From positions 1-44,282 of IMG/VR virus record IMGVR_UViG_3300035670_000419: 44,282 nt of DNA; one strand, 5' to 3'. The notes beneath the pieces were generated by a model that saw nothing but the letters and a program-made list of their open reading frames with translations, searched no databases and had not been told where the DNA came from. Positions 1 to 13,958 of this stretch are shown here, one piece after another. The position numbers and the translations under genes were made by a program. Position 1 is the first letter of the stretch; each line of letters opens with the position of its first letter. The DNA is from a virus.

Positions 1-169
1 GGTATTCCTTCAAGAAATACTGAAGGCCAGCGAAAACAACCTTTTTAGTGCCAGTTCTCCGAGTGGAGCGAGCGGTGAGGTTACTGAAAATAATCTCAGT
101 GCCTTTAGGATATTGGTGAATATGGCCTACTTTGTAGCCATCGATTAGAGTTGCTGGATTTACTTGCAT
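1..169 (-). CDS. nadV: Nicotinamide phosphoribosyltransferase homologue (NadV/NAMPT-like), N-terminal part only
   Basis: Only the first 56 codons are in the window; the rest lies beyond the left edge. The ATG at 169 opens a frame containing NPATLIDGYKVGH, QYPKGTE and FSNLTARSTR. These match the N-terminus of the NAMPT/NadV family, which is usually about 460-500 residues and makes NMN from nicotinamide and PRPP. In phages the same fold also occurs as Namat, which joins nicotinamide to ADP-ribose pyrophosphate to give NAD+ directly (NARP1 pathway). The gene follows the Prs-like gene after 29 nt, with no clear Shine-Dalgarno, so the two are probably co-transcribed and act on the same pathway. 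Family membership is clear; NMN-forming versus NAD+-forming activity cannot be decided from this fragment. Confidence 0.9.
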   Translation of the reverse strand, partial: MQVNPATLIDGYKVGHIHQYPKGTEIIFSNLTARSTRRTGTKKVVFAGLQYFLKEY

Positions 170-198
170 GACGTATGATACTCTAAGTTTTGAAAAAG

Positions 199-984
199 TC
201 AAGCGAAAAGATCCATTACGACAACATTTTCTGGGAAGTCGAAATTCGCTTGCGAGTTTGTAGTGTAGATTTTATGGAATTTTTCAGCAAGTGCTGTAAT
301 CCCGTTCCTTTCCGAATCAACGTGGGCAACAAAAAGGTCGATCTTTTTGGCCCCTTTCGAAGCCATCTCGTCGTAAAGTCCCGCGAAAGTTCCACCCATT
401 GCGCAAACATCATCAAAGATAACGTAGTGGAGATCTGGGTCAAGTTCCTGAGGAACTTCAATCTTTAGGATTTTTCCGTCGCTTACGTCACGGATTTTAT
501 TTGCCTGAAGAAATTGAGTTTTAAATTTCTCTGCGATTTTAAATGTTCGCTTCGATGCTCCTGCGTCTGGTGCTACAGATACGTCCCATTTTTCGATGAG
601 TCCGCTCAGAATAAACATTTCTACTAGATCCTGCAACTCTACAGTGTAGACGTTATTGATAAGGGCGGGGGTTACATCAGAGTGGGGACAGAGGATTTGA
701 ACGAGATCAAAACCCAAGCTATTTAAAATATCCGTGTAAACCTTGATCGAAAAAGGTTCCCCTTCGTTACAGATACGATCTTGGCGACTGTAGCGGACAT
801 ACGGAAGCAGAACTCCCATTTTTGCCAATGGATTACTCCGTTTCAAAGCGTCTTTCTGAAGAGCTAGTTTAATGAGGTCTCCGTCTTGGCAATTAATTAA
901 GATTGCTCCCTCATTATCCTTAAAATTCGACTGGCAGTGATAGCTCCCATCTGGGAACTTAAATTCTTTTCTGAAGTTTTCCAT
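199..984 (-). CDS. prs: Phage ribose-phosphate pyrophosphokinase homologue (Prs-like; possibly ADPR-PP synthetase Adps)
   Basis: A 261-residue protein of the PRPP synthetase family, which transfers pyrophosphate from ATP to ribose 5-phosphate. Visible motifs are LLPYVRYSRQDR (about 59-70), CPHSDVTPAL (99-108), VAPDAGASKR (137-146) and the PRPP-binding loop VIFDDVCAMGGT (188-199). It is shorter than bacterial Prs (about 315 residues). I start it at the ATG at 984: a longer frame from a TTG at 1017 would use the promoter's own -35 box as its first codons. The -10 box ends 6 nt before this ATG, so the mRNA should be leaderless. The next gene is the NadV homologue. Together they could make NMN from ribose-P and nicotinamide, or act as the Adps/Namat pair that rebuilds NAD+ from ADP-ribose and nicotinamide. 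Confidence 0.9.
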   Translation of the reverse strand: MENFRKEFKFPDGSYHCQSNFKDNEGAILINCQDGDLIKLALQKDALKRSNPLAKMGVLLPYVRYSRQDRICNEGEPFSIKVYTDILNSLGFDLVQILCPHSDVTPALINNVYTVELQDLVEMFILSGLIEKWDVSVAPDAGASKRTFKIAEKFKTQFLQANKIRDVSDGKILKIEVPQELDPDLHYVIFDDVCAMGGTFAGLYDEMASKGAKKIDLFVAHVDSERNGITALAEKFHKIYTTNSQANFDFPENVVVMDLFA

Positions 985-989
985 AATGA

Positions 990-1017
990 AATGTAACACT
1001 CTTTCCGAGTTTGTCAA
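990..1017 (-). promoter_or_regulatory. Sigma70-type promoter of the prs-nadV unit
   Basis: TTGACA at 1017-1012, 16-nt spacer, TACATT at 995-990, preceded by GTGT as in three of the other promoters. The ATG of the Prs-like gene begins 5 nt after the -10 box, so transcription should start at or within a base of it. The same design recurs at 4337, 13959, 27615 and 34876. Confidence 0.7.
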
Positions 1018-1026
1018 GAAGTTTTT

Positions 1027-1554
1027 TCAAACGCTCTTAAATGGTTCGTCCAAAATCAAATTAACAAATTTTATTATCCTTTTATAAACCTTTGAGTTTG
1101 TCGTAAACCCAAATCTTTCCGTGGCAACTTCTTTAATGTAGGTTTTTAGATCAGTTCCCATTTCGGCAGATCTCGCCTTGAGGTCGCAGCAAAACTCGGC
1201 AAGCTGCAAGTCATTCATTTGGCTAATACCACCTACAAAATATTGAGGGTGGTGATCGTTTGTTTGCTGATGTTGGTGTATGGCTGTTTTGAGTAAAGGA
1301 TCGGAGTTCTCTCTGTGTAAGGATTCCCACTCGATTCCTTCAAACTTAGAAATGTCATGTCGTCTCACTCGCTGAATCAATCTCCGAGCGAAATCCAAAT
1401 CTGCTTTAGATTCCGCGTGATCAATAATTCTCTCCGCTAGTTTTTCTGCTACAGAGTTTACATTGTTGATGTGATCTAAAACAGAAAACAATCGTCTCCG
1501 ATATGAATCCTTTTCCTCTAGGGAGGGTTTTTTACAAACTGTTTCCTCGCTCAT
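1027..1554 (-). CDS. DUF5662-like phage protein (probable HD-like helical fold)
   Basis: A 175-residue protein rich in His and Glu. Helical N-terminal half, RRHDISKFEG near residue 68, then HQHQQTNDHHPQYF near residue 93 and LAEFCCDLKARSAEMG near residue 118. This spacing of HD, HHP and a C-D-x-x-A-R-S segment is what I recall for the DUF5662 family of phage and bacterial proteins, which resembles metal-dependent HD hydrolases. The substrate is unknown. The gene overlaps the zinc-protein gene upstream by 23 nt and ends 10 nt before the prs promoter, placing it at the end of the unit that begins with the macrodomain gene. Family call is from motif memory. Confidence 0.65.
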   Translation of the reverse strand: MSEETVCKKPSLEEKDSYRRRLFSVLDHINNVNSVAEKLAERIIDHAESKADLDFARRLIQRVRRHDISKFEGIEWESLHRENSDPLLKTAIHQHQQTNDHHPQYFVGGISQMNDLQLAEFCCDLKARSAEMGTDLKTYIKEVATERFGFTTNSKVYKRIIKFVNLILDEPFKSV

Positions 1555-1750
1555 TTAGTCTATCTAGTCTCTCCGAATCTAAGCAGTATTCACAAAACCA
1601 TACGAGAAGCACACTCGCGGAGTCTTTTCTTTCAGGTTCTATTTTAGTCTCTTTTACCTTTAGCAAGGAGTGAGTTGTCACTTCTCCACAGTGTTTGCAC
1701 TGGAAAGTTTTTTTGTCAGAGTATTTTTCGAGAACCCTTCCGATCCTCAT
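1532..1750 (-). CDS. Small zinc-ribbon protein, function unknown
   Basis: A 72-residue protein with two Cys pairs: CKHC near residue 18 and CEYC near residue 53. Such a pair-of-pairs normally binds one zinc ion. The gene starts with an ATGA overlap on the end of the RNA ligase gene and runs 23 nt into the DUF5662-like gene, so it is probably translated by coupling. The spacing of the Cys pairs, with a basic linker between them, would fit a nucleic-acid or protein adaptor. I do not recognise a named family. Confidence 0.7.
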   Translation of the reverse strand: MRIGRVLEKYSDKKTFQCKHCGEVTTHSLLKVKETKIEPERKDSASVLLVWFCEYCLDSERLDRLNERGNSL

Positions 1751-2988
1751 GACAACACTTCCTCCCCTTTGTCGAGGGCTTCAGTTTCCTTAAGTAGGAA
1801 TCTGCTAGACTTAAATTTAAAAGCGTCAAAAGTCAGACCTTCTTTTCTAATAACTACGCCCTCTTCAGGAACGACGTTCTTACAAAGGAAGCAGTCTTTC
1901 TCATTAAATTCTTCTTTGAGCTTTTGCGCCCAACCTTCCCTCCAATTTTCGACAGAAGTATCAACTCCTCTTAGTTTGCAATAATCTTCAACAGTTCCAG
2001 TAAAGAATTGTGGACAGTATTTCAAACCAAACTTGTTACAAAACTCTTTGATTTGAGCATTGGAATATTCGAAAGTTAAACCTTCTGGGCTAGTATATGT
2101 GATTCTATAAACATAGACTTCATTATAAGGGGCTGTTACAGAATCTTTGTCGCAACCGTAATCATAACCACTTTGAATGACCCCGCCAGTTTTATTGAAT
2201 CCAACAATCTCTCCATAGATTGCCATACCATTTCCTAGAAGTTTTTCTAAGTGGGCGGTAGAGTCTAGCCAAAGGTCATACTTATCCTTTTTCGCTCTAA
2301 GGATTTTCTTTCTGCTAGAAACTACAAATTTATACTTTGGAGTCAAATTAAACTTCCAAAATTTTCTTTTAGCAAGAACTTTTCTCGCAGTGAAAGAAGT
2401 TCCGTGCAGTTTGTAAGAAATAGAGATAAGGTCGCTTAGTTCGAACTTACTAATATTTCGCCCAAAATGAGAAGTATCAATATGGAATTCAAATTGCCCA
2501 TCTACAAATTGCTTTGGGGAGTCAGTATCTGATCCACTTTTAGGTCCTCCAGAATTTCCACCTTCTTTAGGAATAAATTTCTCGCAAATTTCTTGGTCGT
2601 CAATCTCGTTAAAAATATCTCCTTCTTTTAATTTAGAAATATCACAGAAAGTCGAAAGAGAGGTTAGAGGCATAAGCATACCTTCGGAGAACTCACCCCT
2701 TAATTTCATTGCCCTTACTCTACCATTTCTTTCGATGTAGCCTTTCTTCTCCTTATCGAGATTTAACTCGGCATCTTTGTAAATAGAATTTCTGCTCAAA
2801 AAATCATGAGAGATTTTGCTTTCAACGGGGAAATAAACCATCAATCCTTCGGTTGCCGAAAGGTCAGTGATAACGTTATTTAAGTTAACGTTCCAGCAAA
2901 GCAGCTTGTCAGCATTGGAATGCTTTCTGGGATTCGAAATGCGGACGATTTGTGCCGCATAGTTTTCAGTAGTAACTTTGAGTTTCAT
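1747..2988 (-). CDS. RNA ligase, DraRnl/Rnl5 (DRB0094) type
   Basis: A 413-residue ATP-dependent RNA ligase. The nucleotidyl-transfer Lys is K193 in YKLHGTSF (motif I). YGEIVGF is a motif III candidate, EEGVVIRKEG fits motif IV and DAFKFKSSRFL motif V. The first 150 residues (ADKLLCWNV, GLMVYFP, VRAMKLRGEFSEGML) match the N-terminal accessory domain of the Deinococcus-type ligases, which seal 3'-OH/5'-phosphate nicks in RNA. I start at the ATG at 2988, which overlaps the stop of the GIY-YIG gene as ATGA; a TTG-initiated extension to 3012 is less likely. In phages such ligases commonly repair tRNAs cut by host anticodon nucleases. Its neighbour is an ADP-ribose-binding macrodomain. Confidence 0.88.
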   Translation of the reverse strand: MKLKVTTENYAAQIVRISNPRKHSNADKLLCWNVNLNNVITDLSATEGLMVYFPVESKISHDFLSRNSIYKDAELNLDKEKKGYIERNGRVRAMKLRGEFSEGMLMPLTSLSTFCDISKLKEGDIFNEIDDQEICEKFIPKEGGNSGGPKSGSDTDSPKQFVDGQFEFHIDTSHFGRNISKFELSDLISISYKLHGTSFTARKVLAKRKFWKFNLTPKYKFVVSSRKKILRAKKDKYDLWLDSTAHLEKLLGNGMAIYGEIVGFNKTGGVIQSGYDYGCDKDSVTAPYNEVYVYRITYTSPEGLTFEYSNAQIKEFCNKFGLKYCPQFFTGTVEDYCKLRGVDTSVENWREGWAQKLKEEFNEKDCFLCKNVVPEEGVVIRKEGLTFDAFKFKSSRFLLKETEALDKGEEVLS

Positions 2989-3800
2989 AAGCTTGTTTTG
3001 ATTATCTCCCAATTTGTTGAATTCAATCTCTCGGGGGTCATTCTGTTATGTTTTGGGTTTTTAGGTTCTGGTATTTTACCTTTATTTATAAATTCTTTAC
3101 AAGTCGAAAGTGCTAATTTTTTAGATTTTACAAAGGAGCAAAATTCCCCTTTTACTTCAAATTTTTCGCCATCTGGCGAAATGAAAGTGTAATTTTTTGA
3201 CCCACCTTTGCTCGCGTAAAGAAACCACTTCTCCTTTGGTAGTGTTGTGCCAGCAGCTTTTCTAAATGCGGACATTTTGGCCTTAGATTCTTCTGTGTGA
3301 GATTTTCCTTCAAATGAATTTTTATTATCTTTCAAGTATCGTTTTTGGCCTTTTGACATTTTAATTCTGCTTTCTTCCGAATGTTTTTTCCCCAAAAAGG
3401 GGTTTGGATGATTTCTGTAATATTCCTTGTTTCTTTCGGATATCTTTTTTTTAAAAATCTCAGATCTAACGAGCCCACTCTGCCCCTCTCCACCATCTGT
3501 TAAGTTTGTTAAAATCCCAGAACCTAAATCACGCCTTCCATACTGTGCAATCAACCCCTTTTCTAAATCAAAGCTCTCAAGTTCAGAAAGTCCCTCTTTA
3601 ATAATTTTATATGGGATCTCTCCAAATTCTTGTAAAATCTTTTTTGAAACACTATTTTTGAGCTTATTATTCCCCGCGATTTTTTGATGGTCTTTAACTC
3701 TCCGATATTTTCTACCCTGATTGTCTACGATCTTACCCTTGCCTATATAAAAGGGTAGTTGATTTCTAGGGTCTATTAAAGCGTAAACATAATATTCCAT
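2985..3800 (-). CDS. Free-standing GIY-YIG homing endonuclease with NUMOD3 DNA-binding motifs
   Basis: A 271-residue protein. The N-terminal GIY-YIG nuclease domain shows YVYALID (about 4-10) and FYIGKG (17-22), a basic RKYRRVKDH segment and NLTDGGEG near residue 98. Two NUMOD3-like motifs follow (GKKHSEESRIKMS near 138 and GKSHTEESKAKMS near 165), then a Lys-rich C-terminal region. This is the architecture of phage homing endonucleases (SegA/I-TevI-like). It sits between the macrodomain gene and the RNA ligase gene and does not interrupt either, but its stop codon overlaps the ligase start (ATGA), so it has inserted into an operon without breaking coupling. The ATG at 3800 has no obvious Shine-Dalgarno. 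Confidence 0.9.
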   Translation of the reverse strand: MEYYVYALIDPRNQLPFYIGKGKIVDNQGRKYRRVKDHQKIAGNNKLKNSVSKKILQEFGEIPYKIIKEGLSELESFDLEKGLIAQYGRRDLGSGILTNLTDGGEGQSGLVRSEIFKKKISERNKEYYRNHPNPFLGKKHSEESRIKMSKGQKRYLKDNKNSFEGKSHTEESKAKMSAFRKAAGTTLPKEKWFLYASKGGSKNYTFISPDGEKFEVKGEFCSFVKSKKLALSTCKEFINKGKIPEPKNPKHNRMTPERLNSTNWEIIKTSL

Positions 3801-3836
3801 GCACTTACATACACGGTCTTGGTCGTGGTGAGAGCT

Positions 3837-4331
3837 TTAAATATTCTTTTCTTTTTGAAATTTCTCAAAATCTATTCTATCGAGATCTCTAACGCAAAAT
3901 TTAATATCTATTGCGTCAGTTCTCCCAAACTTATTAAAAAAAATATCATGCATTACTGAAAAATCCCCACCCCCCAAACCGCAACCAATTTTGTAAGGCA
4001 CCTTTACTACAGAGCCATGGGGTAGCTCCCAAGCTAGTTTAGCTACAATTTTTTCCCAAGCCTCGTAGTTCGTTCTTGACGTTTCCTCAACCCCACCAAT
4101 GTAATATTGACCGTAGGCATTAATTACTTTAATGTCACCACAATCCACAATCTCATAAGTTCCGAGCTTTTCAAAAGCTCCCCTTTCTGTAGCTTTGTCT
4201 GCCAAAGCCGCCTTGGGGTATCTTCGAGCCATCTCTCTCGAAAGCCCGCCATGAATATGAAAGCAGTTCTTCTGCTCCATAAGATAATCCGCCTCCTCAA
4301 GGAAGAGGTCGTTCAAAACGTATTGAATCAT
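3837..4331 (-). CDS. Macrodomain protein (ADP-ribose binding; Appr-1''-p processing type)
   Basis: A 164-residue single-domain protein. CFHIHGGLSREMARRYPKAALADKA (residues 23-47, shown in part as HGGLSREMARRYP), VINAYGQY (69-76), TNYEAWEKIVAKLA (87-100) and VKVPYKIGCGLGGGDFSVM (109-127) match macrodomains that bind ADP-ribose. Family members hydrolyse ADP-ribose 1''-phosphate or remove ADP-ribose from proteins or nucleic acids (as DarG and Poa1p do). It opens a transcription unit: the -10 box ends 6 nt upstream of the ATG, so its message should be leaderless. Downstream come the GIY-YIG, RNA ligase and NAD-related genes. Binding of ADP-ribose is well supported; the actual substrate is unknown. 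Confidence 0.88.
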   Translation of the reverse strand: MIQYVLNDLFLEEADYLMEQKNCFHIHGGLSREMARRYPKAALADKATERGAFEKLGTYEIVDCGDIKVINAYGQYYIGGVEETSRTNYEAWEKIVAKLAWELPHGSVVKVPYKIGCGLGGGDFSVMHDIFFNKFGRTDAIDIKFCVRDLDRIDFEKFQKEKNI

Positions 4332-4336
4332 GGGCT

Positions 4337-4364
4337 ACGATAACCCACAATTCGGTTTTGTCAA
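4337..4364 (-). promoter_or_regulatory. Sigma70-type promoter of the macrodomain-RNA ligase unit
   Basis: TTGACA at 4364-4359, 16-nt spacer, TATCGT at 4342-4337, then 5 nt to the ATG of the macrodomain gene at 4331. Same spacing as the prs promoter. The -10 is a weaker match and lacks the TG extension. Confidence 0.6.
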
Positions 4365-4711
4365 GAAATTTTTAGAACTAAAATTGACGAAGACTCTTTA
4401 TCCCCCATCTCCAAGCAAATAATATCAAAATATCTTGCAAAGTAGAACTTTACTCCATTTTCGTCTACCCCTGTTTCAAATTCGAGAAGGGGATTTATTG
4501 CGTTCTCAAATCTTAAATAATCTGGGGCACTATTTTCCGAAAAGATGGGTCTCTCTGAGAATCTGTGATCCAAAGCCCAGTCATCCCCTTTTGTAAAAAA
4601 GGATAGCTCCCTAGCTTCTAAGAGATTCTCTCCGACTTTTACTTCGTAGCTCCCCTCGTAAGTCTCTGTAAGATAAATAACCTTATCGTCAGTATATAAC
4701 TTCATTTTCAT
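4361..4711 (-). CDS. Hypothetical protein, 116 aa
   Basis: No family recognised. The protein is acidic, with alternating short beta-type segments (VIYLTETYEGSYEVKVG near residue 11, VKFYFARYFDIICLEMG near residue 86) suggesting a small beta-rich or alpha/beta fold. It starts with an ATGA overlap on the gene upstream (stop at 4708) and is the last gene before the macrodomain promoter, whose -35 box overlaps its final codons. Coding is supported by its place in the overlapping operon and by normal composition. Confidence 0.7.
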   Translation of the reverse strand: MKMKLYTDDKVIYLTETYEGSYEVKVGENLLEARELSFFTKGDDWALDHRFSERPIFSENSAPDYLRFENAINPLLEFETGVDENGVKFYFARYFDIICLEMGDKESSSILVLKIS

Positions 4712-4995
4712 TTTAAATAAATTTCTAATAATTCTTTCTCAAACTGTAACTCTTCGTGATTTTTTGCAAACTCTAATGCGCTCTTTAAAAGATCCCTCTT
4801 TAAGGTAAATTTTTCTTTTAATGTATAATTTTTGATTAAGAATAAAATATGTGTTAAGTCTAACAACCAAGCAATTTCTACACCCTTTTCTTTGAAGGCA
4901 TCTCTTAAGGAACACTGTCTGTTTAGAAATCTTTCAATTTTTTCAGGATCTAAATGAAATGTCTCTACTAAAAAATCATTAAAGTTCGTATCCAT
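4708..4995 (-). CDS. Hypothetical helical protein, 95 aa
   Basis: No family recognised. The sequence is Leu/Lys/Glu-rich and predicted to be almost entirely helical (WLLDLTHILFLIKNYTLKEKF in the middle, ending in a Glu-rich helix). It overlaps the sulfotransferase gene by 17 nt upstream and the next gene by 4 nt downstream, so it is part of the same translationally coupled run. It may be a partner of one of these neighbours. Confidence 0.68.
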   Translation of the reverse strand: MDTNFNDFLVETFHLDPEKIERFLNRQCSLRDAFKEKGVEIAWLLDLTHILFLIKNYTLKEKFTLKRDLLKSALEFAKNHEELQFEKELLEIYLK

Positions 4996-5689
4996 ATTTT
5001 TCTGCTAAGATCTCAACGCTCTTTGGAACCGTTTTGCACAATTCGTTTTCACTCATGTTTTCTTTCTTTATTCTTAAGACCCCCGTGTTTAAATTCGGCA
5101 CCCTCTGTAAACCAAGATATTCGAAAGTATCCTGTAATGTCTCGTCTGGATTTTCCACGAAATCTTCTAATTTTACATTAAGTGCAATCTTTTCAGCGTT
5201 CGTAACTTTATTCGCCCAAAAATCTAAAATTTCCTCGTCTGTGTAATTGGGAGCCCAAACTCCAATGTCTAAAAGATTCGACATTTTCTTTACACTTTTC
5301 AGAAAAGATAAAGGATGCCTGACTAATTGAATATATTTAACTTGCCCCAATCTCTGAGCGAAACTTCGGTGATTCTCTTGCAAGTGCTGTGCTGGTTTTT
5401 TATCGCCATAGCAAAGTATATTAGTCTTGTATGCACTTGCTACGTCAAAACTCCTGAGTCTTTCTAACGAGTCTATCAAGGTCTTTTCATCTTTTTTCTC
5501 GGGAGAGTTCCCTAGTAACTCTTTCGTTCTATTCAAGCCCTCTTCCCAGTCTTCCTCAACAGGGGTTCCTAATAACCAATTTACAATATCTGCTTCGTGG
5601 GGGGCATAAAAATTTGGATGAAGATTTAATCCCTTATTGAAGAGAGTCGTTCCACTTCTTTTATTTCCAACAAAAAAACAAAATGTCAT
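4979..5689 (-). CDS. PAPS-dependent sulfotransferase-like protein
   Basis: A 236-residue P-loop protein. FFVGNKRSGTTLF (residues 5-17) is the 5'-phosphosulfate-binding loop of sulfotransferases and LVRHPLSFLKSV (122-133) the 3'-phosphate-binding motif with the conserved Arg and Ser. Members move a sulfuryl group from PAPS to hydroxyls or amines of sugars, lipids or proteins. The length is near the family minimum. It overlaps the beta-propeller gene by an ATGA. Glycosyltransferase genes a few kb upstream in the same unit suggest a glycan as the acceptor, but the sequence does not show which. Sulfotransferases are uncommon in phages. Confidence 0.82.
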   Translation of the reverse strand: MTFCFFVGNKRSGTTLFNKGLNLHPNFYAPHEADIVNWLLGTPVEEDWEEGLNRTKELLGNSPEKKDEKTLIDSLERLRSFDVASAYKTNILCYGDKKPAQHLQENHRSFAQRLGQVKYIQLVRHPLSFLKSVKKMSNLLDIGVWAPNYTDEEILDFWANKVTNAEKIALNVKLEDFVENPDETLQDTFEYLGLQRVPNLNTGVLRIKKENMSENELCKTVPKSVEILAEKYGYEL

Positions 5690-6456
5690 ACAACTAAAAT
5701 ATCGTAAATTTCTTTTTTATCTTCAAATTCTATCAAATCATATAGTCCACCTTCTTCGTTAATAAGAAGAATCTTTGCTCCTAGTCCACTTTCTTCCCCA
5801 TTTCTAGATTGGCTTACCCCAATCAGAAGTTTGTCACCTAGTTTTGCCAAACCTCTTGTGTAACCATCTAATTGTGTAATCGGCTCAAAATTCTTATATA
5901 GTTTAGAGAGCTTGCTCTCTAGGAAATAAACATCTCCACCTACCGCAAGAAGCGAATGGGGGTGTTTTAAACCTTGGATTTTTAAAGATTCCTTACTTTG
6001 AATATTTCCATTTTGAGATTCTGCCTTACTTAACTCAGATTCTCCAAATCCAGAAAAAAGAAGTTCTCCTTCAAAAAAACAGATTGAATTCAAATGAATT
6101 GAGTCCCCACCCCTTCCGGCTTTAAGAACCTCTTTGGGAGCGCCTTGCAAAAAACCGTTTTTGTATTCAATGACCTCTATAGAATCATCTGACGTGTTTA
6201 CTACAAAAAGTTGATTTCCGTTAAACGCCATCGAATGAATGTCTTGAAGTCCGCTACCGTAAGTGTTTTCTAATTCTAATTTTGTGTTGAGTTGTAATAT
6301 TTCTACCCCATTCCTTGCAAGGAAAATTTTTCCATCCTTTTCTGCTATTCCGGTGATACTACCACCAATAGTGACAAACCTAACTTCCGTTAGATCGTCA
6401 TTCAATACCGCTAGGTTATCTCTGCTTTTAGAATTGCAGAAAGAAACGAGTATCAT
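5686..6456 (-). CDS. Beta-propeller protein, DUF4915/TIGR03032-like
   Basis: A 256-residue protein built from repeated beta-strand blades: GKIFLARNGVEIL near residue 43, HSMAFNGNQLFVVNTSDDSIEVI near 74 (given here as HSMAFNGNQLFVVN), HLNSICFFEGELLFSGFG near 121, HPHSLLAVGGDVYFLES near 163 and GYTRGLAKLGDKLLIGVS near 197. The HSMAF, LNSICF, HPHSL and YTRGLA phrases resemble the DUF4915 / TIGR03032 family, for which no biochemical activity is established. No signal peptide is evident. The gene is coupled to the sulfotransferase gene by an ATGA overlap, so the two products may work on the same substrate. The DUF assignment is from motif memory. Confidence 0.65.
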   Translation of the reverse strand: MILVSFCNSKSRDNLAVLNDDLTEVRFVTIGGSITGIAEKDGKIFLARNGVEILQLNTKLELENTYGSGLQDIHSMAFNGNQLFVVNTSDDSIEVIEYKNGFLQGAPKEVLKAGRGGDSIHLNSICFFEGELLFSGFGESELSKAESQNGNIQSKESLKIQGLKHPHSLLAVGGDVYFLESKLSKLYKNFEPITQLDGYTRGLAKLGDKLLIGVSQSRNGEESGLGAKILLINEEGGLYDLIEFEDKKEIYDILVV

Positions 6457-7001
6457 TTTTTAATCTCAACTTCTAGGGAGTCAATGAATTTTGGCATCGA
6501 ACTTTCGATTCCTTTTGCTGAACTATTTACAACAATTTTATATCTTCCCTTTTCTTCCTTAATTTCGGCATTCTCTTTCGTGATTACCGGAGGTGAGTAA
6601 ATATTGATAAACCTTTCGAAAGTGTCTTTTACACTTTGCGGAATTTCTTTAATTTCCTCAACGATATCTTCAACCACTTCTTTTACGTCTTTAATAAATT
6701 CTTCTACACCCTCCTTGATATCTTCAAATTTCTCAAAGGTCCAGTCTGTTGTTTCAAGCTTATTTGCCACATTTTCTACGATCTCTTTCGTTTCGGTTAA
6801 AACAGTCACAACCTCTTTTGCAGCTTCCTCAATCCCTCCGAATGGGACTACTTTTGTGGGTCCCTCTTTTTCTACATTAGGGAATCCATTTAAAACTTCC
6901 AAATTTTCTTTTTGATCTACCTTAGATTTTTCCACCTTTTTCTTTTGGGCTTGCTTTGTGGTAATTTTCTTTACAACCTTTTTATCTGTTTTCTTTTTCA
7001 T
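6453..7001 (-). CDS. Lys-rich coiled-coil protein, 182 aa
   Basis: The first 30 residues are strongly basic (KKKTDKKVVKKITTKQAQKK), followed by an acidic helical region (about 57-135) with heptad-like Val/Ile/Leu spacing (EEFIKDVKEVVEDIVEEIKE) and a short C-terminal beta-like tail (GRYKIVVNSSAKG). The opposite charges of the two parts suggest a nucleic-acid-binding tail joined to a coiled coil for self-assembly. No family recognised. It lies 1 nt after the NADAR gene and overlaps the beta-propeller gene by 4 nt. Confidence 0.7.
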   Translation of the reverse strand: MKKKTDKKVVKKITTKQAQKKKVEKSKVDQKENLEVLNGFPNVEKEGPTKVVPFGGIEEAAKEVVTVLTETKEIVENVANKLETTDWTFEKFEDIKEGVEEFIKDVKEVVEDIVEEIKEIPQSVKDTFERFINIYSPPVITKENAEIKEEKGRYKIVVNSSAKGIESSMPKFIDSLEVEIKK

Positions 7002-7002
7002 C

Positions 7003-7545
7003 TTACTTCTTTGAGAATAGTTTGAATTTTTCTTTTTTTGTTTCTTCTATTTTTGGTGCTACCTTTTCTTCTAGTTTTGAAATCGTGGGCTTCTCTTGTA
7101 AACCTTTTCTAACCTCCTCTAAAATGAGTCCTAATTGATTCTGCCCCTCACCTCTTTCGTTAACTCCCCAATAGGTATCTCCCCAATGATTTGCATTAAT
7201 GAGTTTTTTATCCCCAGTGCTTAAAAGCAGTTTCTTTAATTCTGGGTCTGAGAACTTTTGCTTCATCAGGTCCACCATGATTCCATCCCTCATGTCTACC
7301 CAGTTTTTATAGACGGGAACTCCTACTGAAGCCTCGTTAGCTTTAAAAGGGTCTATCTTTGAGAATTTCTCAAAATCTTTTGGGTCTGGACACTTTTCGG
7401 CATGAAAGGCGTTTCCCGCTGATGGGAACTCTACCCCCCTTCTTTTCATCTTGTGAGGAAAAGTTAAAGACATAAATTCGAAATCATATAAGAATCCGAA
7501 AATTTTCTCACTGTCGCTAAAAACATAATTTACTACTGAATTCAT
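7003..7545 (-). CDS. NADAR-family protein (YbiA/DUF1768-like) with C-terminal tail
   Basis: Residues 10-147 match the NADAR (NAD and ADP-ribose) superfamily: FLYDFEFMSLTFP (18-30), EFPSAGNAFHAEKC (39-52), MRDGIMVDLMKQKFSDPELKKLL (85-107, key parts), TGDKKLINANHWGDTYWG (110-127) and GQNQLGLILEEVR (134-146). YbiA-type members cleave N-glycosidic bonds of riboflavin intermediates, and some NADAR proteins remove ADP-ribose from guanine. The common Glu in the (S)-E-H/N-x-F/Y-Q motif reads Gly here (SAGNAF), so activity is not certain. A Lys/Glu-rich tail (about 150-180) is extra. It overlaps the gene upstream by an ATGA. Context with a macrodomain and NadV/Prs homologues suggests ADP-ribose chemistry. 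Confidence 0.83.
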   Translation of the reverse strand: MNSVVNYVFSDSEKIFGFLYDFEFMSLTFPHKMKRRGVEFPSAGNAFHAEKCPDPKDFEKFSKIDPFKANEASVGVPVYKNWVDMRDGIMVDLMKQKFSDPELKKLLLSTGDKKLINANHWGDTYWGVNERGEGQNQLGLILEEVRKGLQEKPTISKLEEKVAPKIEETKKEKFKLFSKK

Positions 7546-7805
7546 ACTATTTTATACACTTTTATAAGGTCTTCTGGAACAAGGTCGGAAACATCGTCTC
7601 CTATATTAAACTTCCTCCCGTCTTCCACTTTGTCAAAAATTGAACGTATTTTCTCTATTCTTGGGTTCCCTGAGTTAATTAACACCACAAATTCTCCATT
7701 TATATACCTTTTATTAACTAAAATCTCTAAATCTTTACAAAAAACTGTATATCCACCTGTTGAATTTTTGACGCATCGCCTGACTCTTTCAATCGTTACG
7801 CTCAT
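7542..7805 (-). CDS. Hypothetical protein, 87 aa
   Basis: No family recognised. It is a small alpha/beta protein with a basic N-terminus (TIERVRRCVKNSTGG), a central beta region (YTVFCKDLEILVNKRYINGEFVVLI, key part LEILVNKRYI) and an acidic C-terminal half. Its ATG overlaps the upstream nuclease stop (ATGA), and its own stop overlaps the NADAR start in the same way, so it is tightly embedded in the operon and could act with the NADAR protein. Confidence 0.68.
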   Translation of the reverse strand: MSVTIERVRRCVKNSTGGYTVFCKDLEILVNKRYINGEFVVLINSGNPRIEKIRSIFDKVEDGRKFNIGDDVSDLVPEDLIKVYKIV

Positions 7806-8299
7806 ACTAGAAATGGGTTTAGTTTGTTGATCGTTATTCCTAAGCTATCGCAGGTCATCGTTAGATTTCCATCTACGTCTCCTTCTTTGTAAAGAGTTCC
7901 GTATTTTTTAAAATCTTTTTTTGAAATCCATCCCAAAAGCCAAACTTTTTCAAGAGATTTTAAACATCTCACAAAGATATAGCCGTCGCACTTTTGATCA
8001 TGATACGTGTAGGTCGTGCAATTAAAACTCACCTTTGGGGTTGCATTCGTCATTTTCGTCTTAATCTCCCACTTTAACCCTTGGGGATCTAAAATGTCAA
8101 AATCATAATACGCCATTTTTTCTGGGTGAAGCTTCCAGCCTTTTTTCGTTAAAAAGTCTCCCGCAACAACCTCTCCTAGGAAGGCATACAGATTCCTTTC
8201 TCCATTAAAAATGGATTTTGAATTCGTTTTAAATTCTTTTGCCAATTTTGAGGCTCTTTCCTTCTGTTCGTCGGAAGGGTAAAATTCAAGAATCTTCAT
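7802..8299 (-). CDS. PD-(D/E)XK-type nuclease-like protein
   Basis: A 165-residue protein with the order of motifs expected for the PD-(D/E)XK fold: FLGEVVAGDFLTKKGW (about 40-55, with E43), YYDFDIL (64-70) and GLKWEIKTKM (74-83), giving the D...E-x-K catalytic set D66 or D68, E78 and K80. Two beta strands follow with a DGYIFVRC segment near residue 105, typical of the family core. It resembles phage-encoded restriction-like or Holliday-junction-type nucleases, but the substrate is not shown. It overlaps the glycosyltransferase gene by 14 nt upstream. Confidence 0.7.
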   Translation of the reverse strand: MKILEFYPSDEQKERASKLAKEFKTNSKSIFNGERNLYAFLGEVVAGDFLTKKGWKLHPEKMAYYDFDILDPQGLKWEIKTKMTNATPKVSFNCTTYTYHDQKCDGYIFVRCLKSLEKVWLLGWISKKDFKKYGTLYKEGDVDGNLTMTCDSLGITINKLNPFLV

Positions 8300-9350
8300 C
8301 TCTCCAAGCTATATCCCTTTGTCTTAAGTGCCCGTTAAATTCCCCACCCTGTTCGTGATAAGTTAATATGTGAACAAAGCCCCCATCTCTTCTAATTACA
8401 TGATCCGCTGGACAATGTGGGAGCCCCCCTATACGGATTCCATTTGGATGCCACTTATTCCAAATAATAAAAAGATCCTCTGTTCCCTTTCCTTCGTAAC
8501 CAGAAAAATCTATAAGAGCCAACGCTCTTTCGGAACAAAGGGTATTTCCGAACCCACACCAATCCGAAGGGATAATTGCACCCTTCCCAAGACTTGGATA
8601 TGCAAAGTCAAGCCATCCGCGTCTCTTCCATCCAAACTTGGAAGTTACATCATAAACGTTGCCCGAAGGTTGACATTTTTTATCTATAAAAGTCTCCCAT
8701 CTTCTAATCTTATTAAAGATTGTTTTTCTCTTAGAGAGGCTTTTTTCTAAGTTTTCCGAGTCAGCCTCCATAGCTTTTAATGTATTCGTAAGCTCTTCTA
8801 GCCTCTTCAGAACTTTTTCAGGGACTTCTTTTTCTTCGTTGTAAAAGTTTGGCAAAATTTGCCTTTGTGGAGTTCCATGACCTAACATGAACGGACCTCC
8901 TCCCTGAGAAGGGTATGGACATGCCGTCACCCCATAGTAGCCGTGATCAAAATCCAAAAGATCAATCATACATCTTAAAGAGTTGACCTTTGGTATAACG
9001 TCGCTATCTAATGACCAATATAATTTAGAACATATCTGTTTTGCATAAACCGCCGAAGCAGTTCTCATTTTTGCAATTAATAATTGAGCGGACTCTTTAT
9101 AGTTTTTATGAGAGTCATCTACTTTTTCTAAGATAATATGTTTTACACTCCATCCCTTAGGAAGGGAGTCTTCATAGAACTTTGCTAAAAAATACATCTT
9201 TGAGCATCCGTCACTAACGAGAATCACTACACCCGCACTCTCCTCTCCAAGGTAGGAGATGTTCGCTAACACAGCTTCTGCTTGCATCCTTGTGGCGTAA
9301 GCATATCTGTTGGTCGCACAGACCGAAACTGAAATCAATCTTTCTTCCAT
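8286..9350 (-). CDS. GT-A type glycosyltransferase
   Basis: A 354-residue protein. The N-terminal half has an alternating alpha/beta pattern (SVSVCATNRYAYATRM, GVVILVSDG) ending in YWSLDSDVIP, whose D115-S-D117 is the metal-binding DxD of GT-A glycosyltransferases. A charged helical insertion (about 165-210, EELTNTLKAMEADSENLEKS) and a C-terminal region with GWLDFAYPSLGKG, DWCGFGNTL and GTEDLFIIWNKWHPNG follow; ED is a plausible catalytic acid pair. It probably transfers a sugar to a virion, DNA or host-surface glycan. No signal peptide or membrane segment is visible. It overlaps its neighbours by 14-16 nt. Confidence 0.8.
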   Translation of the reverse strand: MEERLISVSVCATNRYAYATRMQAEAVLANISYLGEESAGVVILVSDGCSKMYFLAKFYEDSLPKGWSVKHIILEKVDDSHKNYKESAQLLIAKMRTASAVYAKQICSKLYWSLDSDVIPKVNSLRCMIDLLDFDHGYYGVTACPYPSQGGGPFMLGHGTPQRQILPNFYNEEKEVPEKVLKRLEELTNTLKAMEADSENLEKSLSKRKTIFNKIRRWETFIDKKCQPSGNVYDVTSKFGWKRRGWLDFAYPSLGKGAIIPSDWCGFGNTLCSERALALIDFSGYEGKGTEDLFIIWNKWHPNGIRIGGLPHCPADHVIRRDGGFVHILTYHEQGGEFNGHLRQRDIAWRDEDS

Positions 9351-10174
9351 CTAGAAAGGCACCCGAAGATTAACGGATAAAACTTAGGTTGAATATCTGC
9401 CGCTTTTTTCCAAGCTTCCACACCAACAAATTCATAATCCTCTGTAGCGAGTTTTTCTTTAAAATCCTCAAATGTAAGATTCATCTTTTCTAATCTTTCT
9501 TCAAGAATTGAGGAAGGTTTTACTCCGACGCTTGTAGTAATCTCTTCTGGTTTTTCGAACGAAATTTCGTCTTGTGAGACAATAAAGATTCTCAAGAAAT
9601 TTCTAACCGCTCTCGCGAACGCTCTATTTGAAGCAATAGTTGTTAAATAATTTGCCCCAAAATCTTTAGAGCAGTTTCCGATATGTGCATCGGCAGATGC
9701 CGAAAACGAAACTTCTCTAAATCCTGTCTCAATGTTTGGTAGCCAAGTAATGGTGCATTCAACACATGCAAAATCGGGACCGGAAGAAACAACTCTTTCG
9801 CTAACATTAGAAAAACCTCTAAGTTCCGCCAATTCTCTATAGCCCCAAAGTTTGATAATCAGGTCTTCGTCCCTTGCTTTTGATTTTAAGTCATCCAATT
9901 CTTCCTTTGAGAGTGAGTCTAGATCTATAGGTTCCGACTTCTTAAGAAACTTTTCACGGTTTAAAGAAATATGTTTATTATCAATCATTTTTCTCCAATC
10001 GATCCGACCATCTTCGGAGAATGCATAATCAACCCCGTATCTGAGCCCCTGATCATCAAAAGACCATTTAGGAATAGTTTTATTTTGAGTAGATTTTTCC
10101 TCTACCTTTTTTGTCGCCCTCTTTTTAACGGGCGTTTTCTTCGCTGGAGTTTTTTTTGCAGTAGCTTTTCTCAT
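9335..10174 (-). CDS. Putative DNA-recombination protein with histone-like Lys/Ala/Pro tail
   Basis: A 279-residue protein starting at the ATG at 10174, which overlaps the previous stop as ATGA (a longer start at 10210 lies inside that gene). Residues 1-27 are an H1-like tail (KATAKKTPAKKTPVKKRATK). The core has LWGYRELAELRGF, VECTITWLPN and a conserved-looking stretch around YLTTIASNRAFARAVRNFLRI (key part NRAFARAVRNFL, about residue 185). The last motif recalls the A-E-T-x-A-x-x-R-A-L helix of Rad52/Erf-like single-strand annealing proteins, but this is a weak resemblance. A RecA is encoded elsewhere in the window, so an annealase would be an addition. Function is unproven. Confidence 0.55.
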   Translation of the reverse strand: MRKATAKKTPAKKTPVKKRATKKVEEKSTQNKTIPKWSFDDQGLRYGVDYAFSEDGRIDWRKMIDNKHISLNREKFLKKSEPIDLDSLSKEELDDLKSKARDEDLIIKLWGYRELAELRGFSNVSERVVSSGPDFACVECTITWLPNIETGFREVSFSASADAHIGNCSKDFGANYLTTIASNRAFARAVRNFLRIFIVSQDEISFEKPEEITTSVGVKPSSILEERLEKMNLTFEDFKEKLATEDYEFVGVEAWKKAADIQPKFYPLIFGCLSRWKKD

Positions 10175-11328
10175 AAAGTAAAAATCATATAATTGTTCAT
10201 GTCGTTCCAAAATAGTTCACTTTGAGTCTTGGGGAGTTCCGCAAGATTTTCGCTCAAATTGAACATAGGTAATTTAGCATCTAAATGCCATTCTGACAAG
10301 AAGAAATTTCCGGATGATGCAAGAATCTTTGACGACTTAAAGTATCCATTTTCCGGAATCTCTTGTAAAGCCTCGGGTCTAACGATCTTCTTTGGAGGAT
10401 TAAGGGAAAGTAACTTAAACTTTAGTTCTGGAAGTAGTGTCTCGATCTCCGTGACTACAGAATATTCTATGTTTAGTTGAGCTACCTCTCTAATAAAGTC
10501 TATATCCAAATCTTCAATCTCTTCGACTTTAAAAATCAAAGCCTTTAGTCTTCCTTTTAGTGCTTGTAATATCTGGTTAGAAACCCTTTTCTTAGTTACA
10601 AGATTGCAAAACCTACTTTCGGTATTCTTGAAGATAAAAAACTCCTCACCACCAAGGTCATATCTAATATTTATTAAATTATTTTGAAATAATTGATCAG
10701 GCAGTATGTGGTCTGGAATAACATCTATAATGGGATTCGTATAATTTTTCCCAATATATACCGTTTTCTGTGTCGTTTCTTTAACTCCTAAAATAGAAAG
10801 TGCAGCATTAGCAACTTCTTCAGGTTTAATCAAATTGATTGTCTTAGGATTTTCTACAACTGAATGGGTCGCCCTATTTCCATTCCTATTAGAGTTTAAA
10901 AACTGGCTGGCGGGATTCTTATAGAAAGGAGCGCAAACTTCTGATAAAGTAGGTCCGTAAAGCCCTACGCAAGGAATATCTAAGAGCCCAGCAACATGCA
11001 TCCATACAGAGTCGTTTCCTATGTGTAAAAGGGCGTTTTCGACAACGTAAGAACATTGAGACAGATTTGTCTTCCCTCTTAAGTCTTCACAATAGGGTAA
11101 TAATTTTTCCGCAACTGTTCCAATCTGGACAAACCTTACTCCTTCAAGACGCTTAATTAAGATCTCCAAAACTTCGCTATAATAATCGTAATTCTTACTA
11201 TCCATTCCCGAACCGTTATGGATAGTGATATAATTCCCCACAATAGGAAAAAACGAACGATACGGCTTAAGTGGTTCCTTAGGTAATTTTACGCCACAAT
11301 AGTTGGCATATACTTCTGCTAATTTCAT
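10171..11328 (-). CDS. C-terminal half of a split GT9 (heptosyltransferase-like) glycosyltransferase
   Basis: A 385-residue protein starting at the ATG at 11328. Its first 170 residues are the C-terminal half of a GT9 domain: YITIHNGSGMDSKNY (donor-side Gly loop), VRFVQIG, then LLHIGNDSVWMHVAGLLDIPCVGLYGPT (key part NDSVWMHVAG). The matching N-terminal half is at the end of the 635-aa gene upstream, in the same codon phase, and an HNH endonuclease gene sits between. The remaining 200 residues are not recognised. A longer start at 11376 is unlikely because it lies within the HNH gene. The two halves may associate into one active enzyme, or the activity may be lost. Confidence 0.8.
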   Translation of the reverse strand: MKLAEVYANYCGVKLPKEPLKPYRSFFPIVGNYITIHNGSGMDSKNYDYYSEVLEILIKRLEGVRFVQIGTVAEKLLPYCEDLRGKTNLSQCSYVVENALLHIGNDSVWMHVAGLLDIPCVGLYGPTLSEVCAPFYKNPASQFLNSNRNGNRATHSVVENPKTINLIKPEEVANAALSILGVKETTQKTVYIGKNYTNPIIDVIPDHILPDQLFQNNLINIRYDLGGEEFFIFKNTESRFCNLVTKKRVSNQILQALKGRLKALIFKVEEIEDLDIDFIREVAQLNIEYSVVTEIETLLPELKFKLLSLNPPKKIVRPEALQEIPENGYFKSSKILASSGNFFLSEWHLDAKLPMFNLSENLAELPKTQSELFWNDMNNYMIFTL

Positions 11329-11330
11329 AA

Positions 11331-11585
11331 TTAATGATGGATTCTTATATGACAATTTGCGCAAACAATCTCGCACTTTTTAATTTCTTTTTCAATTCTA
11401 CTAAAAGAATAGCCCTTTTGAAGGAGTTTAGATACACTCATTTCTTTTAAGGTTGGGTCGGTATGATGAAATTGAAGAACTCTATGGTCTGTCTCTCCGC
11501 ACACTTGACAACCTATTTCTCGCTTTAACTCCCGAACCTTCTCTCGGTTTTTATCGATTCTCTCTAGAGTTTTCCTGTAGCGCAT
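11331..11585 (-). CDS. Small HNH endonuclease inserted within a glycosyltransferase gene
   Basis: An 84-residue HNH protein: CQVC (26-29) and CANCH (75-79) form the zinc-binding frame, LQFHHTDP (37-44) carries the catalytic His pair and the final HIRIHH supplies the last His. The N-terminal helix is rich in Arg/Lys/Glu. Its start overlaps the end of the upstream frame by 35 nt, and its stop is 2 nt before the next ATG. It occupies almost exactly the break between the two halves of a GT9 domain and leaves no room for a group I intron core. It is therefore a free-standing homing-type gene that has split its target. Confidence 0.85.
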   Translation of the reverse strand: MRYRKTLERIDKNREKVRELKREIGCQVCGETDHRVLQFHHTDPTLKEMSVSKLLQKGYSFSRIEKEIKKCEIVCANCHIRIHH

Positions 11586-13458
11586 TGATATCTAAACCGT
11601 TATGTGTATAGGCTGGAATTCTTTGAGTTAAAATGAAGGGAGCAAACCATATGTCTACGAGTCCTTGATTTTCGCCCGAACCCTCCCAAACTTGGAAGTG
11701 CTCAAATTCTGGAGAATATGGAATTAAATTGATCCAAGGGAAGGGCTTAAATATCTGAAAGTTTTCTGGTTTGGTGCAAACATAAAACTCATGATCTTTG
11801 TAAAGATCTTTTAATCCTCCTAAAACACCCAAACTAATAATACAATCCCCTAAAGATTCTGGGATCATATAGCAGATTTTTCTCTTATCAGATTCTTTAA
11901 TAAAGTCTTTTAAATTCTTGGGGTAGTCTACAGAGTTTTCTCTTTTAGCTGTTTCAATGAAAAAATCATAGATATCTTTTCTTGATGCCCCGTTCTGCAA
12001 TGAAGTCAACCAATCCTGAACCCCCTTAGAGTCCCTGCCTTCATCCATCTTTAGGATACCAGAATACATGTCCATGATCCACTCGGTATCGTCTGTAATA
12101 TCTTTGAGGGGATATTCGGGATCTCTTTTCTCTCTTGAGAATTTGAAATCGTAATCTGTTTTCTCTAGACTATCTAAAAATGTCTCAATATTTTTTCCGA
12201 CTACTTCATCAGAAAAGTTTTGAATTGCCCATACTCTTCCTTCTTTTCCATGCTTTCTCGCTAAATCAGGTTTAGAAGAAACTCTTTTCATGAAGTTCTT
12301 GATCGACTCTGGTTTAACCGAAGCTTTGATAAAATTTGAGCCGTGTTCTCTGTAAGTGTCGTATCCTAGCGAATAGACAAACTCTTCCGAGGTGTATTGT
12401 GTGCCGCAAGAATAGGGAACCGTCGCTACTGGAAGTTCGGTTAGCATCGCTTCTATAATTGGAAGCTCCAAGCCACCCGAAGTCATGGGGTGGATATAAG
12501 CATCCATCAAGTTATAGATGATATTCATTTGCCCCTCTGACACCCCGACTGCTGGGTTGGGTGTGATCATAGAGTTGGGGGTTGAGCACGCCATACAGGG
12601 CGAAGAAATGCCTTTAAACGGGCTCACTGTAAAAGATCTGCAATTCGCACAAATATGCGTTGTGAGAATTTTATTAGGATCTAACTTAAACTCCTTGATA
12701 AAGTCCGGAATGTTCCAGCCCGAAGCCTCTGCCCAGCTAGTGTGTAAAAGAAGTTTCGCGTCAGAATTTTCTTTACAGTATAACGAGAAACCTTCTAATA
12801 GAGATCCTACAAGTTTTCTTAATTGGTTTCTGAATACAAATCCAAAGACTTTTTCGTGAGGTTCAATTCCACAGGCTTTTCTGAACTTCTCTCTTTCCTC
12901 TGCGGGAAGAGGATAAAAGTCATTACTTCCTACGGCACCCAATACTGTTTTAACATGATCTAGTCCCTCATTTTTTAGTGCTTCTTCAGCAAAAGATGCC
13001 CAGACCCAGAAATTCTTTGTCTTTCCTGCCGCCTCTATCGCCGCAGGGTAGATAGGTAAAGAGTCTAGGGTTGTCCATAGAACACAAGGGAACTTGTCCC
13101 ACCAAGCCTTGTTCCAATACCCCGCAAAAGCCCAAATATCTTCTGCCCCAATGTATACATCAGGTTTTTCAAGTTCTATGACCCTATCAATATTCCCCGC
13201 GCCATAATGGATATGTCGGAGAATGGCATGGTCCTGAACTCTATCTAATTCTCTAGGGTTGTCGGGTAGTGCGCCGTAGCATTTCCAAGGAACGTGCTTG
13301 CACCTTTCGTCTGACCATGTAAGGGGGCCAGCGGCATATTCTACGATATCATACTTTCCCGTCTTCCATAAGTATGAAAGAATGGCTAAGGAATTTCTTC
13401 CAAAACCAGACTTCAACTTACAGAAAGAAGAATGAAAAAGAATCTTTTTCTTAATCAT
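11551..13458 (-). CDS. GT4 glycosyltransferase fused to the N-terminal half of a GT9 domain
   Basis: A 635-residue protein. Residues 1 to about 440 form a GT-B fold glycosyltransferase of GT4 type: KILFHSSFCKLKSGFGRNSL at the start (key part SGFGRNS), an acceptor-side LEKPDVYIGAED, and the donor-site MTSGGLELPIIEAMLTELPV near residue 327. A zinc-ribbon-like insertion (CANC near 280, CMAC near 298) is unusual. From about 525 the sequence changes to KICYMIPESLGDCIISLGVLGGLK, the GT9 (heptosyltransferase) N-terminus, and stops at 635 shortly after HNGLDINALQ, where the HNH gene begins. The missing GT9 half is the next-but-one gene. Confidence 0.85.
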   Translation of the reverse strand: MIKKKILFHSSFCKLKSGFGRNSLAILSYLWKTGKYDIVEYAAGPLTWSDERCKHVPWKCYGALPDNPRELDRVQDHAILRHIHYGAGNIDRVIELEKPDVYIGAEDIWAFAGYWNKAWWDKFPCVLWTTLDSLPIYPAAIEAAGKTKNFWVWASFAEEALKNEGLDHVKTVLGAVGSNDFYPLPAEEREKFRKACGIEPHEKVFGFVFRNQLRKLVGSLLEGFSLYCKENSDAKLLLHTSWAEASGWNIPDFIKEFKLDPNKILTTHICANCRSFTVSPFKGISSPCMACSTPNSMITPNPAVGVSEGQMNIIYNLMDAYIHPMTSGGLELPIIEAMLTELPVATVPYSCGTQYTSEEFVYSLGYDTYREHGSNFIKASVKPESIKNFMKRVSSKPDLARKHGKEGRVWAIQNFSDEVVGKNIETFLDSLEKTDYDFKFSREKRDPEYPLKDITDDTEWIMDMYSGILKMDEGRDSKGVQDWLTSLQNGASRKDIYDFFIETAKRENSVDYPKNLKDFIKESDKRKICYMIPESLGDCIISLGVLGGLKDLYKDHEFYVCTKPENFQIFKPFPWINLIPYSPEFEHFQVWEGSGENQGLVDIWFAPFILTQRIPAYTHNGLDINALQENSRENR

Positions 13459-13948
13459 TTGCGTTCGAACTTTCTTTTCTTGCTTTTAAAGCGTCGGAAT
13501 ACATTCCAGAAAAGATGTGATCTAAAGAGAACCTGAGAAATTCTTTTAGAAGTTGAGATTCGTTAAAATCAAAACCAATGTAAAAACTCTTCTTCTCGTT
13601 TTGACCCTCTTGCTTATTGATCGAAAGCGAAAACCCAATTTGTTTACCATCCCTAGCATAGGGAGTGAAATTGATATAAGCTGACCCACCAGTTGAGGAG
13701 TGATAGAACCCCTTTTCTGCTGCGGCTTCGTTTTTCTCAATAGCTTTGATTAAAGCTGCGGCTTCGATAAGACTCAGCTTAACGTTAACCTTCTCTCCGT
13801 TTTTGAAAGAGGCTGCGCCTGTTGCTTCATCCCAAGCTGTTTGCTTTACCATCTCAATGAAGATGCCCTTCTTTTCTCCTTTCGAATTGAAAGAGATATT
13901 AGCAAGGCTCCCCTTGACCGACTTGTTTGGTTTATAGAACGTTAACAT
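13451..13948 (-). CDS. Conserved-looking hypothetical protein, 165 aa (possible PC4/Whirly-like ssDNA-binding fold)
   Basis: First gene of a transcription unit. The sequence has strands separated by a helix: GSLANISFNSKGEKKGIFIEMVKQ (key part KGIFIEMVKQ), KVNVKLSLIEAAALIKAIEK, then FYHSSTGGSAYINFTPYARDGKQIGFSLSINK (key part GFYHSSTGGSAYINF). A beta sheet followed by a helix with this type of YHxxxxxxxxxxF pattern resembles PC4/Whirly-like ssDNA-binding proteins, but I cannot confirm this. The mRNA is predicted to have a leader of about 4 nt, because the -10 box ends 11 nt before the ATG. It overlaps the GT4-GT9 gene by 8 nt. Confidence 0.75.
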   Translation of the reverse strand: MLTFYKPNKSVKGSLANISFNSKGEKKGIFIEMVKQTAWDEATGAASFKNGEKVNVKLSLIEAAALIKAIEKNEAAAEKGFYHSSTGGSAYINFTPYARDGKQIGFSLSINKQEGQNEKKSFYIGFDFNESQLLKEFLRFSLDHIFSGMYSDALKARKESSNAND

Positions 13949-13958
13949 AATTATGGAA

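Follow-up and report, generated by a model that had tools for sequence, protein, structure and literature searches.

Phage systems that rebuild nicotinamide adenine dinucleotide (NAD+) are best exemplified by NARP1, in which Adps forms ADP-ribose pyrophosphate and Namat adds nicotinamide, yielding NAD+ (PMC12774641). Here we compare with NARP1 and related systems a gene cluster in the first 7.5 kb of the virus record IMGVR_UViG_3300035670_000419 (positions 1 to 44,282, hereafter the window). The window spans an entire IMG/VR contig (44,282 bases, both ends open) from a large uncultured phage. The cluster carries a NadV-like and a Prs-like gene together with genes for an RNA ligase, a macrodomain, and a NADAR protein. 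Judged from sequence comparison, the first two are best read as NARP1 (Adps and Namat) and not as a phosphoribosyl pyrophosphate (PRPP) synthase plus NadV. The cluster as a whole probably unites a NARP1-type NAD+ reconstitution pair with ADP-ribose-handling enzymes and RNA repair.

That NAD+ rebuilding can serve as counter-defence, as the preliminary description of this DNA proposed, is well supported for published homologues (PMC12774641, PMC11559045, PMC13232231), and ICP1 NrsAB raises NAD+ during infection. There is also a precedent for an enzyme that feeds the pair, namely RyDEP, which is encoded inside the NARP1 operon of mycobacteriophages and whose product feeds Adps (PMC13232231). The operon of mycobacteriophage DyoEdafos resembles the window in encoding an ADP-ribose-releasing enzyme with NARP1, but this is a RyR-domain protein there, whereas the window would rely on a macrodomain and a NADAR protein. 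Gene sets of jumbo and T4-like phages were discussed by Iyer et al. (2021, 2022), who report co-occurrence of Macro, NADAR, NadV, and RNA-repair genes above chance and propose roles against NAD+-based defences. The counter-defence idea for such sets is already published in this work and by Osterman (2024). The domain families and predicted roles are the same as in the window; however, the work of Iyer et al. predates NARP1 chemistry, and its accessible portions do not describe the exact five-family cluster or the Adps subclade. New here is the conserved combined cluster with a divergent, virus-only Adps/Namat branch; the general idea and NARP1 itself were already known.

A probable NARP1 pair

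The Prs-like protein of the window clusters with proteins whose genes neighbour a Namat gene and is separated from the Prs of E. coli and others (FastTree 0.885; SH-like approximate likelihood ratio test (SH-aLRT) 87), a separation with moderate support. The Prs loop DDMIDTGGT is absent, its place being taken by DDVCAMGGTF, and PHSDVTPALINNV is common to this protein and ICP1. Tree and loop both disfavour a PRPP synthase. The label Prs-like thus holds for the superfamily, whose catalytic residues the protein shares with NARP1, while Adps-like is the more exact name. In an IMG/VR scan, a Namat/NadV gene was found within 10 kb at 79 of 80 related viral loci, usually adjoining; a single-sequence IMG/VR scan with the Adps returned nothing. 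Among bacterial matches, true Prs carry a DDMIDTGG-type loop and have no Namat neighbour, and Adps matches carry DDIC(D/A)GGxTF together with a Namat.

The one close relative of the window, recognized through its DNA polymerase (73-80% identical), is a sister contig of 179,178 bases. In both phages the NadV-like gene follows the Adps gene (in the window its start codon lies ~30 bp past the Adps stop), which is the adjacent order of NARP1 in SPbetaL1 and Bas63 and of ICP1 NrsAB. The family assignment of the NadV-like gene stands, but the gene is incomplete: its open frame (2-202) is cut by the contig end, with the likely ATG at 169 placed by alignment with the sister MKLNPLHAVDFYK start, leaving ~56 codons. 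The complete sister NadV is 45-51% identical to the nearest Namat-type proteins and 25-30% identical to KVP40- or NARP2-type NadV, and its best PDB match is the solved Namat 9w5x (E 1e-141; human NAMPT about 1e-50). The clamp-loop Arg is kept in the window fragment, where STR aligns with TSR40 of SPbetaL1, and the sister clamp loop STKY fits the Lys-then-next rule, neither feature being strictly diagnostic. A nicotinamide mononucleotide (NMN) adenylyltransferase (NadM/NadR; PF01467) gave no match in the window, itself a fragment; in the sister, the sole HIGH-family protein is cytidylyltransferase-like (134 amino acids), and no NadM/NadR-like gene was found. This is consistent with NARP1, which needs none.

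Similar pairs also turned up elsewhere. A record named Acinetobacter phage MD-2021a (L048, CAKLQF020000015) looks like bacterial chromosome (transporters, AraC regulator) and has Adps-like, Namat-like (GSFTYNYLTRD), and NadM-Nudix genes in a row at 7099-10316; several Acinetobacter genomes (L274-L278, L288) contain comparable Adps/Namat pairs, and what is called the Acinetobacter "NadV" operon may in fact be of NARP1 type. Two further contigs, L312 (212 kb) and L313 (156 kb), have an Adps-like protein with DDIIDGGRTF beside a NadV with GVGGLLVQNHSRDD at the clamp place, which is neither Namat-like nor the usual Nampt.

A virus-only Adps/Namat branch

The window Adps and its sister counterpart (loop DDVCAKGGTF) fall with proteins bearing a DD(I/V)xxxGGTF loop (FastTree 0.86; SH-aLRT 88 in a 55-taxon IQ-TREE tree), although an interim 104-taxon IQ-TREE tree did not unite this subclade. 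Such proteins occur on viral contigs only, none of the bacterial Adps matches carrying the loop, and identities in INPHARED do not exceed about 40%. The window Adps further differs from described NARP1 in having HVDSE and no HGIFS motif. The partner Namats are altered as well: an insertion in the adenine-clamp helix (GSFTYQgavtxdaIVTRD; sister GSGAYMFNVTRD) is present in 14 of 25 pairs of the branch versus 1 of 167 other pairs, a hand count that ignores kinship and in which the window's own Namat is unreadable. Except for the sister, the branch carriers tested are without the window's polymerase, so the branch is spread over different phage lineages. Judged by sequence, the window Adps is part of a subclade that is uncultured and virus-only, with remodelling of both the Adps loop and the adenine clamp of the partner Namat.

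The Adps loop DD[IV]xxxGGTF, which should face the substrate, and the Namat clamp helix changed together in this branch, and the branch could conceivably handle a different or additional ADP-ribose-type substrate (e.g., phosphorylated or otherwise modified), fed by the macrodomain and NADAR, a notion that we put forward as quite unlikely. The branch poses a clean biochemical question (which substrate?) and offers a natural set of pairs for answering it, and it hints at a broader distribution of NARP1 in viruses than among the isolates studied so far.

Conservation and recurrence of the cluster

The sister keeps NadV, Adps, zinc-ribbon protein, RNA ligase, macrodomain, two small unknowns, DUF4915, Lys-rich protein, and NADAR in the order of the window. 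This order is conserved at about 45-67% protein identity while intervening genes have been replaced; in that sense, the cluster goes beyond chance. The DUF5662 gene is unmatched within the 38 kb of the sister's cluster region, and a sulfotransferase is missing from the open reading frames listed for the sister cluster (it was not used as a query there). The homing endonuclease is absent at the corresponding place, the ligase-macrodomain interval being occupied by a methyltransferase and one other gene. A T4-Rnl1-type RNA ligase and RlaP adjoin NadV in the sister, RlaP being a nucleotidyltransferase thought to partner RNA ligases (PMC7824862). Narrow scans with two-sequence macrodomain and NADAR alignments matched the sister solely, and 26 more distant polymerase relatives, all fragments, showed no Adps, NadV, or NADAR. 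Co-occurrence among relatives is thus borne out by the sister and not by these distant fragments.

Recurrence was also assessed on 43 other NARP1-carrying contigs, a phrog_335 macrodomain being present on 23, a NADAR on 11, and a phrog_968 RNA ligase on 14. With the sister excluded and near-duplicates removed, 9 of 18 contigs have the macrodomain no more than 10 kb from Adps versus 3.8 expected (P 0.005), a proximity above chance; for NADAR it is marginal (4/9 versus 1.8, P 0.07). Since the null, uniform placement of genes per contig, is a crude model of modular phage genomes, and since several tests were run, weight is due to the macrodomain result only. At most 5 kb separate macrodomain and RNA ligase in 5 of 10 cases (1.1 expected, P 0.002), or 3 of 8 after deduplication (P 0.06). 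All families are also present on three other phage contigs (G030, G033, and G041). In G041, NADAR, Adps, Namat, and macrodomain fall within about 8 kb, and in G030, macrodomain, ligase, and NADAR fall within 6.3 kb, >21 kb from Adps.

Macrodomain, NADAR, and RNA ligase

The macrodomain has no Pfam match; its AlphaFold2 model (predicted local distance difference test 92) nevertheless gave Foldseek matches to BT1257, Poa1p, DarG, and TARG1, and profile comparison with the PDB returned 2fg1 (1.2e-23), 5e3b (1e-22), and DarG (1.5e-16). The catalytic Lys of the DarG/TARG1 type (DarG K80, TARG1 K84) is absent, the aligned position being taken by Gln75, as it is by a Gln in BT1257 and 5e3b/SCO6735. 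On model and sequence, we place the protein, which has the ALC1-like fold, in the Gln-type (SCO6735/BT1257) branch of DarG/TARG1-like enzymes. SCO6735, a DarT antidote of the ALC1-like class, reverses the ADP-ribosylation of DNA thymidine and rescues cells from DarT, with Gln85 being essential (PMC9411070). The sister encodes a second, more typical phrog_335 macrodomain elsewhere (G001:C1:173642-174079).

The NADAR assignment is clear by Pfam (67.8 bits, cut-off 35.1) and is matched by Foldseek hits to YbiA (5e-8) and 8bau (1.4e-4). The NADAR of phage T4 acts on guanosine-ADP-ribose in vitro and gives no rescue from DarT1 (PMC11125620). The motifs of the RNA ligase look intact, with K-x-HGTS (motif I), EG(V/I), and K-x-KS conserved in all four proteins aligned. 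In the Mycobacterium phage Whirlwind (L046), Adps and Namat share a stretch of about 8 kb (7135-14812) with a polynucleotide kinase and, about 5 kb from NARP1, an RNA ligase of the phrog_968 type found in the window; this is an independent neighbourhood of NARP1 and RNA repair.

Proposed working and rival explanations

In the proposed working, host NADase effectors would split NAD+ into ADP-ribose and nicotinamide, Adps would add pyrophosphate to the ADP-ribose, and Namat would couple the product with nicotinamide to restore NAD+. The macrodomain, and perhaps NADAR, could cut ADP-ribose from soluble signals or from ADP-ribosylated DNA or RNA; the free ADP-ribose so released is what Adps would take as substrate, and both enzymes could thereby supply the pair. 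The RNA ligase, in turn, would reseal RNAs cut by host nucleases. The closely packed genes may be expressed jointly, and we infer that the set as a whole acts in counter-defence. If so, a single cluster would turn what NADase and ADP-ribosylation defences produce into NAD+ and would mend cut RNA, thereby blunting several defence classes at once.

A number of observations weigh against this proposal. The contig end leaves the catalytic site and clamp helix of the window Namat unreadable, and the window Adps loop differs from the usual DDICDGGxTF. The sister clamp GSGAYMFNVTRD departs from the published signature GSX-Phi-X-Phi-X-Phi-TRD (GS[FY]T[YF]QxxTRD in described NARP1), with one extra residue and Gly at position 3, making it the sole Namat of the first survey without Phe, Tyr, or Trp there. 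The first (phosphate-binding) loop of the macrodomain lacks one residue relative to other phage macrodomains and reads HG-GLS versus MGSGVA in SCO6735/BT1257, from which the protein also differs in overall sequence (about 20% identity). In NADAR, the window has Gly and the sister Ala in place of the E88-type Glu (E. coli C7 numbering), which four other phage NADARs keep; catalysis is accordingly uncertain for both the macrodomain and NADAR, and the anti-DarT reading is weakened for NADAR. The K95-type Lys is kept in the window and is Arg in the sister. Because E88A had a minor effect and K95R was active in E. coli C7 in vitro (PMC11543638), it is possible that the window NADAR is active. The RNA ligase is not closer to Adps than chance predicts (3/14 versus 2.6 expected; within 10 kb and deduplicated as above, 2/12 versus 2.4), and its linkage to NARP1, which looked strong at 28 of 80 loci, shrinks to 3 of 23 ligase lineages, the window's included. 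Genes unrelated in kind (DUF5662, zinc ribbon, homing endonuclease, sulfotransferase, DUF4915, and small unknowns) are interleaved. Finally, large phages commonly carry NadV (22-33%), macro (40-56%), and NADAR (over 48%; PMC9503650), and joint presence alone is weak evidence.

The last points also fit a loose collection, in which large phages gather such genes and their nearness is largely a one-lineage accident, each gene acting alone. This account, which we find doubtful, agrees with the cluster being common to only one close relative and with the marginal or chance-level proximity of NADAR and RNA ligase to NARP1, but it is at odds with the order kept in the diverged sister despite gene replacement, and with the above-chance clustering of macrodomain and NARP1 in other phages. 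Ordinary nucleotide salvage, with Prs and NadV making PRPP and then NMN for general metabolism or for a NARP2-type route with a host NMN adenylyltransferase, is in our judgement unlikely. The profile matches do bear Prs and NadV names, the published Namat retains NMN formation from PRPP (PMC12774641), the subclade loop has GGT as Prs does, and the aromatic residue at clamp position 3 is missing from the sister. However, the Asp-Thr of Prs is missing from the loop (DDVCAMGGT in the window versus DDMIDTGGT), the protein groups with Adps, neither phage yielded a NadM/NadR-like gene, NadV is far from the KVP40/NARP2 type, and the clamp-loop Arg is kept.

We regard as very unlikely a third account, in which macrodomain and NADAR would serve the RNA ligases by processing ADP-ribose phosphates from NAD+-dependent RNA 2'-phosphate removal (KptA/Tpt1). 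The nearness of ligase and macrodomain in the window and several other phages, RlaP and the second RNA ligase of the sister, and the presence of Poa1p, an ADP-ribose-1''-phosphate phosphatase, among the best folds would suit it. Yet a search for KptA/Tpt1 (PF01885) came up empty for the window contig, its sister, and 13 further contigs, and no polynucleotide kinase or 2H partner was seen adjoining the ligase.

Gene layout and further observations

All genes of the first 7.5 kb lie on the minus strand, mostly with overlaps of a few bases or gaps <40 (Table 1). Profile searches detected the five families (NAMPT/NadV as an N-terminal fragment, Prs superfamily, RNA ligase, macrodomain, and NADAR), so the reported presence of these families is confirmed by Pfam and phrog profiles and, for the macrodomain, by the AlphaFold2 model. 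They form a set in being tightly packed on one strand but are not contiguous.

Table 1. Genes of the cluster in the first 7.5 kb of the window
Feature	Position	Strand	Evidence
Namat/NadV-like, 5' part only	2..169	-	Pfam NAMPT_N 1.3e-10, phrog_448 7.8e-16
Adps-like (Prs superfamily), candidate ADP-ribose pyrophosphate synthetase, TTG start	199..1017	-	phrog_619 2.8e-62
DUF5662 protein	1027..1554	-	Pfam PF18907 9.8e-18
Small CxxC zinc-ribbon-like protein	1532..1750	-	N-terminal part kept in sister, 60% over 48 aa
RNA ligase, N-terminal OB-fold, KLHGTS motif I	1747..3012	-	phrog_968 5.7e-62; 67% identity to sister
GIY-YIG/NUMOD3 homing endonuclease	2985..3800	-	Pfam NUMOD3 3.1e-11, phrog_314
Macrodomain, SCO6735/BT1257-like, shortened first loop	3837..4331	-	phrog_335 5.8e-20
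Protein without assigned family	4361..4711	-	kept in sister, 33%
Protein without assigned family	4708..4995	-	kept in sister, 54%
Sulfotransferase	4979..5689	-	Pfam Sulfotransfer_3 5.3e-10
DUF4915 protein	5686..6456	-	kept in sister, 42%
Lys/Glu-rich protein	6453..7001	-	C-terminal part kept in sister
NADAR (YbiA-like)	7003..7545	-	Pfam 1.8e-18

The homing endonuclease gene, which overlaps the RNA ligase start between ligase and macrodomain, is probably a selfish insertion. In a megablast of 20 kb, none of 50,697 phage records matched, and PADLOC models gave no hit for ten proteins; a tRNA scan found none, and promoter scores were at the level of shuffled sequence. Terminator-like sites are about twice as frequent as in shuffles (16 versus a mean of 8.8), which proves nothing on transcripts.

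Immediately upstream of the cluster lie several glycosyltransferase-like genes (8286-13458, -), including one of heptosyltransferase family 9 type. In the window, no interruption is present in the polymerase III alpha-like gene (13983-16607, -). In the sister (G001:C1:86624-90493), it is split near residue 520 by ~1.3 kb within one open frame of 1296 amino acids, which suggests an intein there that is absent from the window. Further along lie a nucleoside 2-deoxyribosyltransferase-like protein (25116-25703, -; Pfam 6.7e-12) and the large subunit of ribonucleotide reductase (27683-30415, -), whose sequence reads as containing an apparent intein (CLTGDSWINT ... VHNC) that probably includes a homing endonuclease domain.

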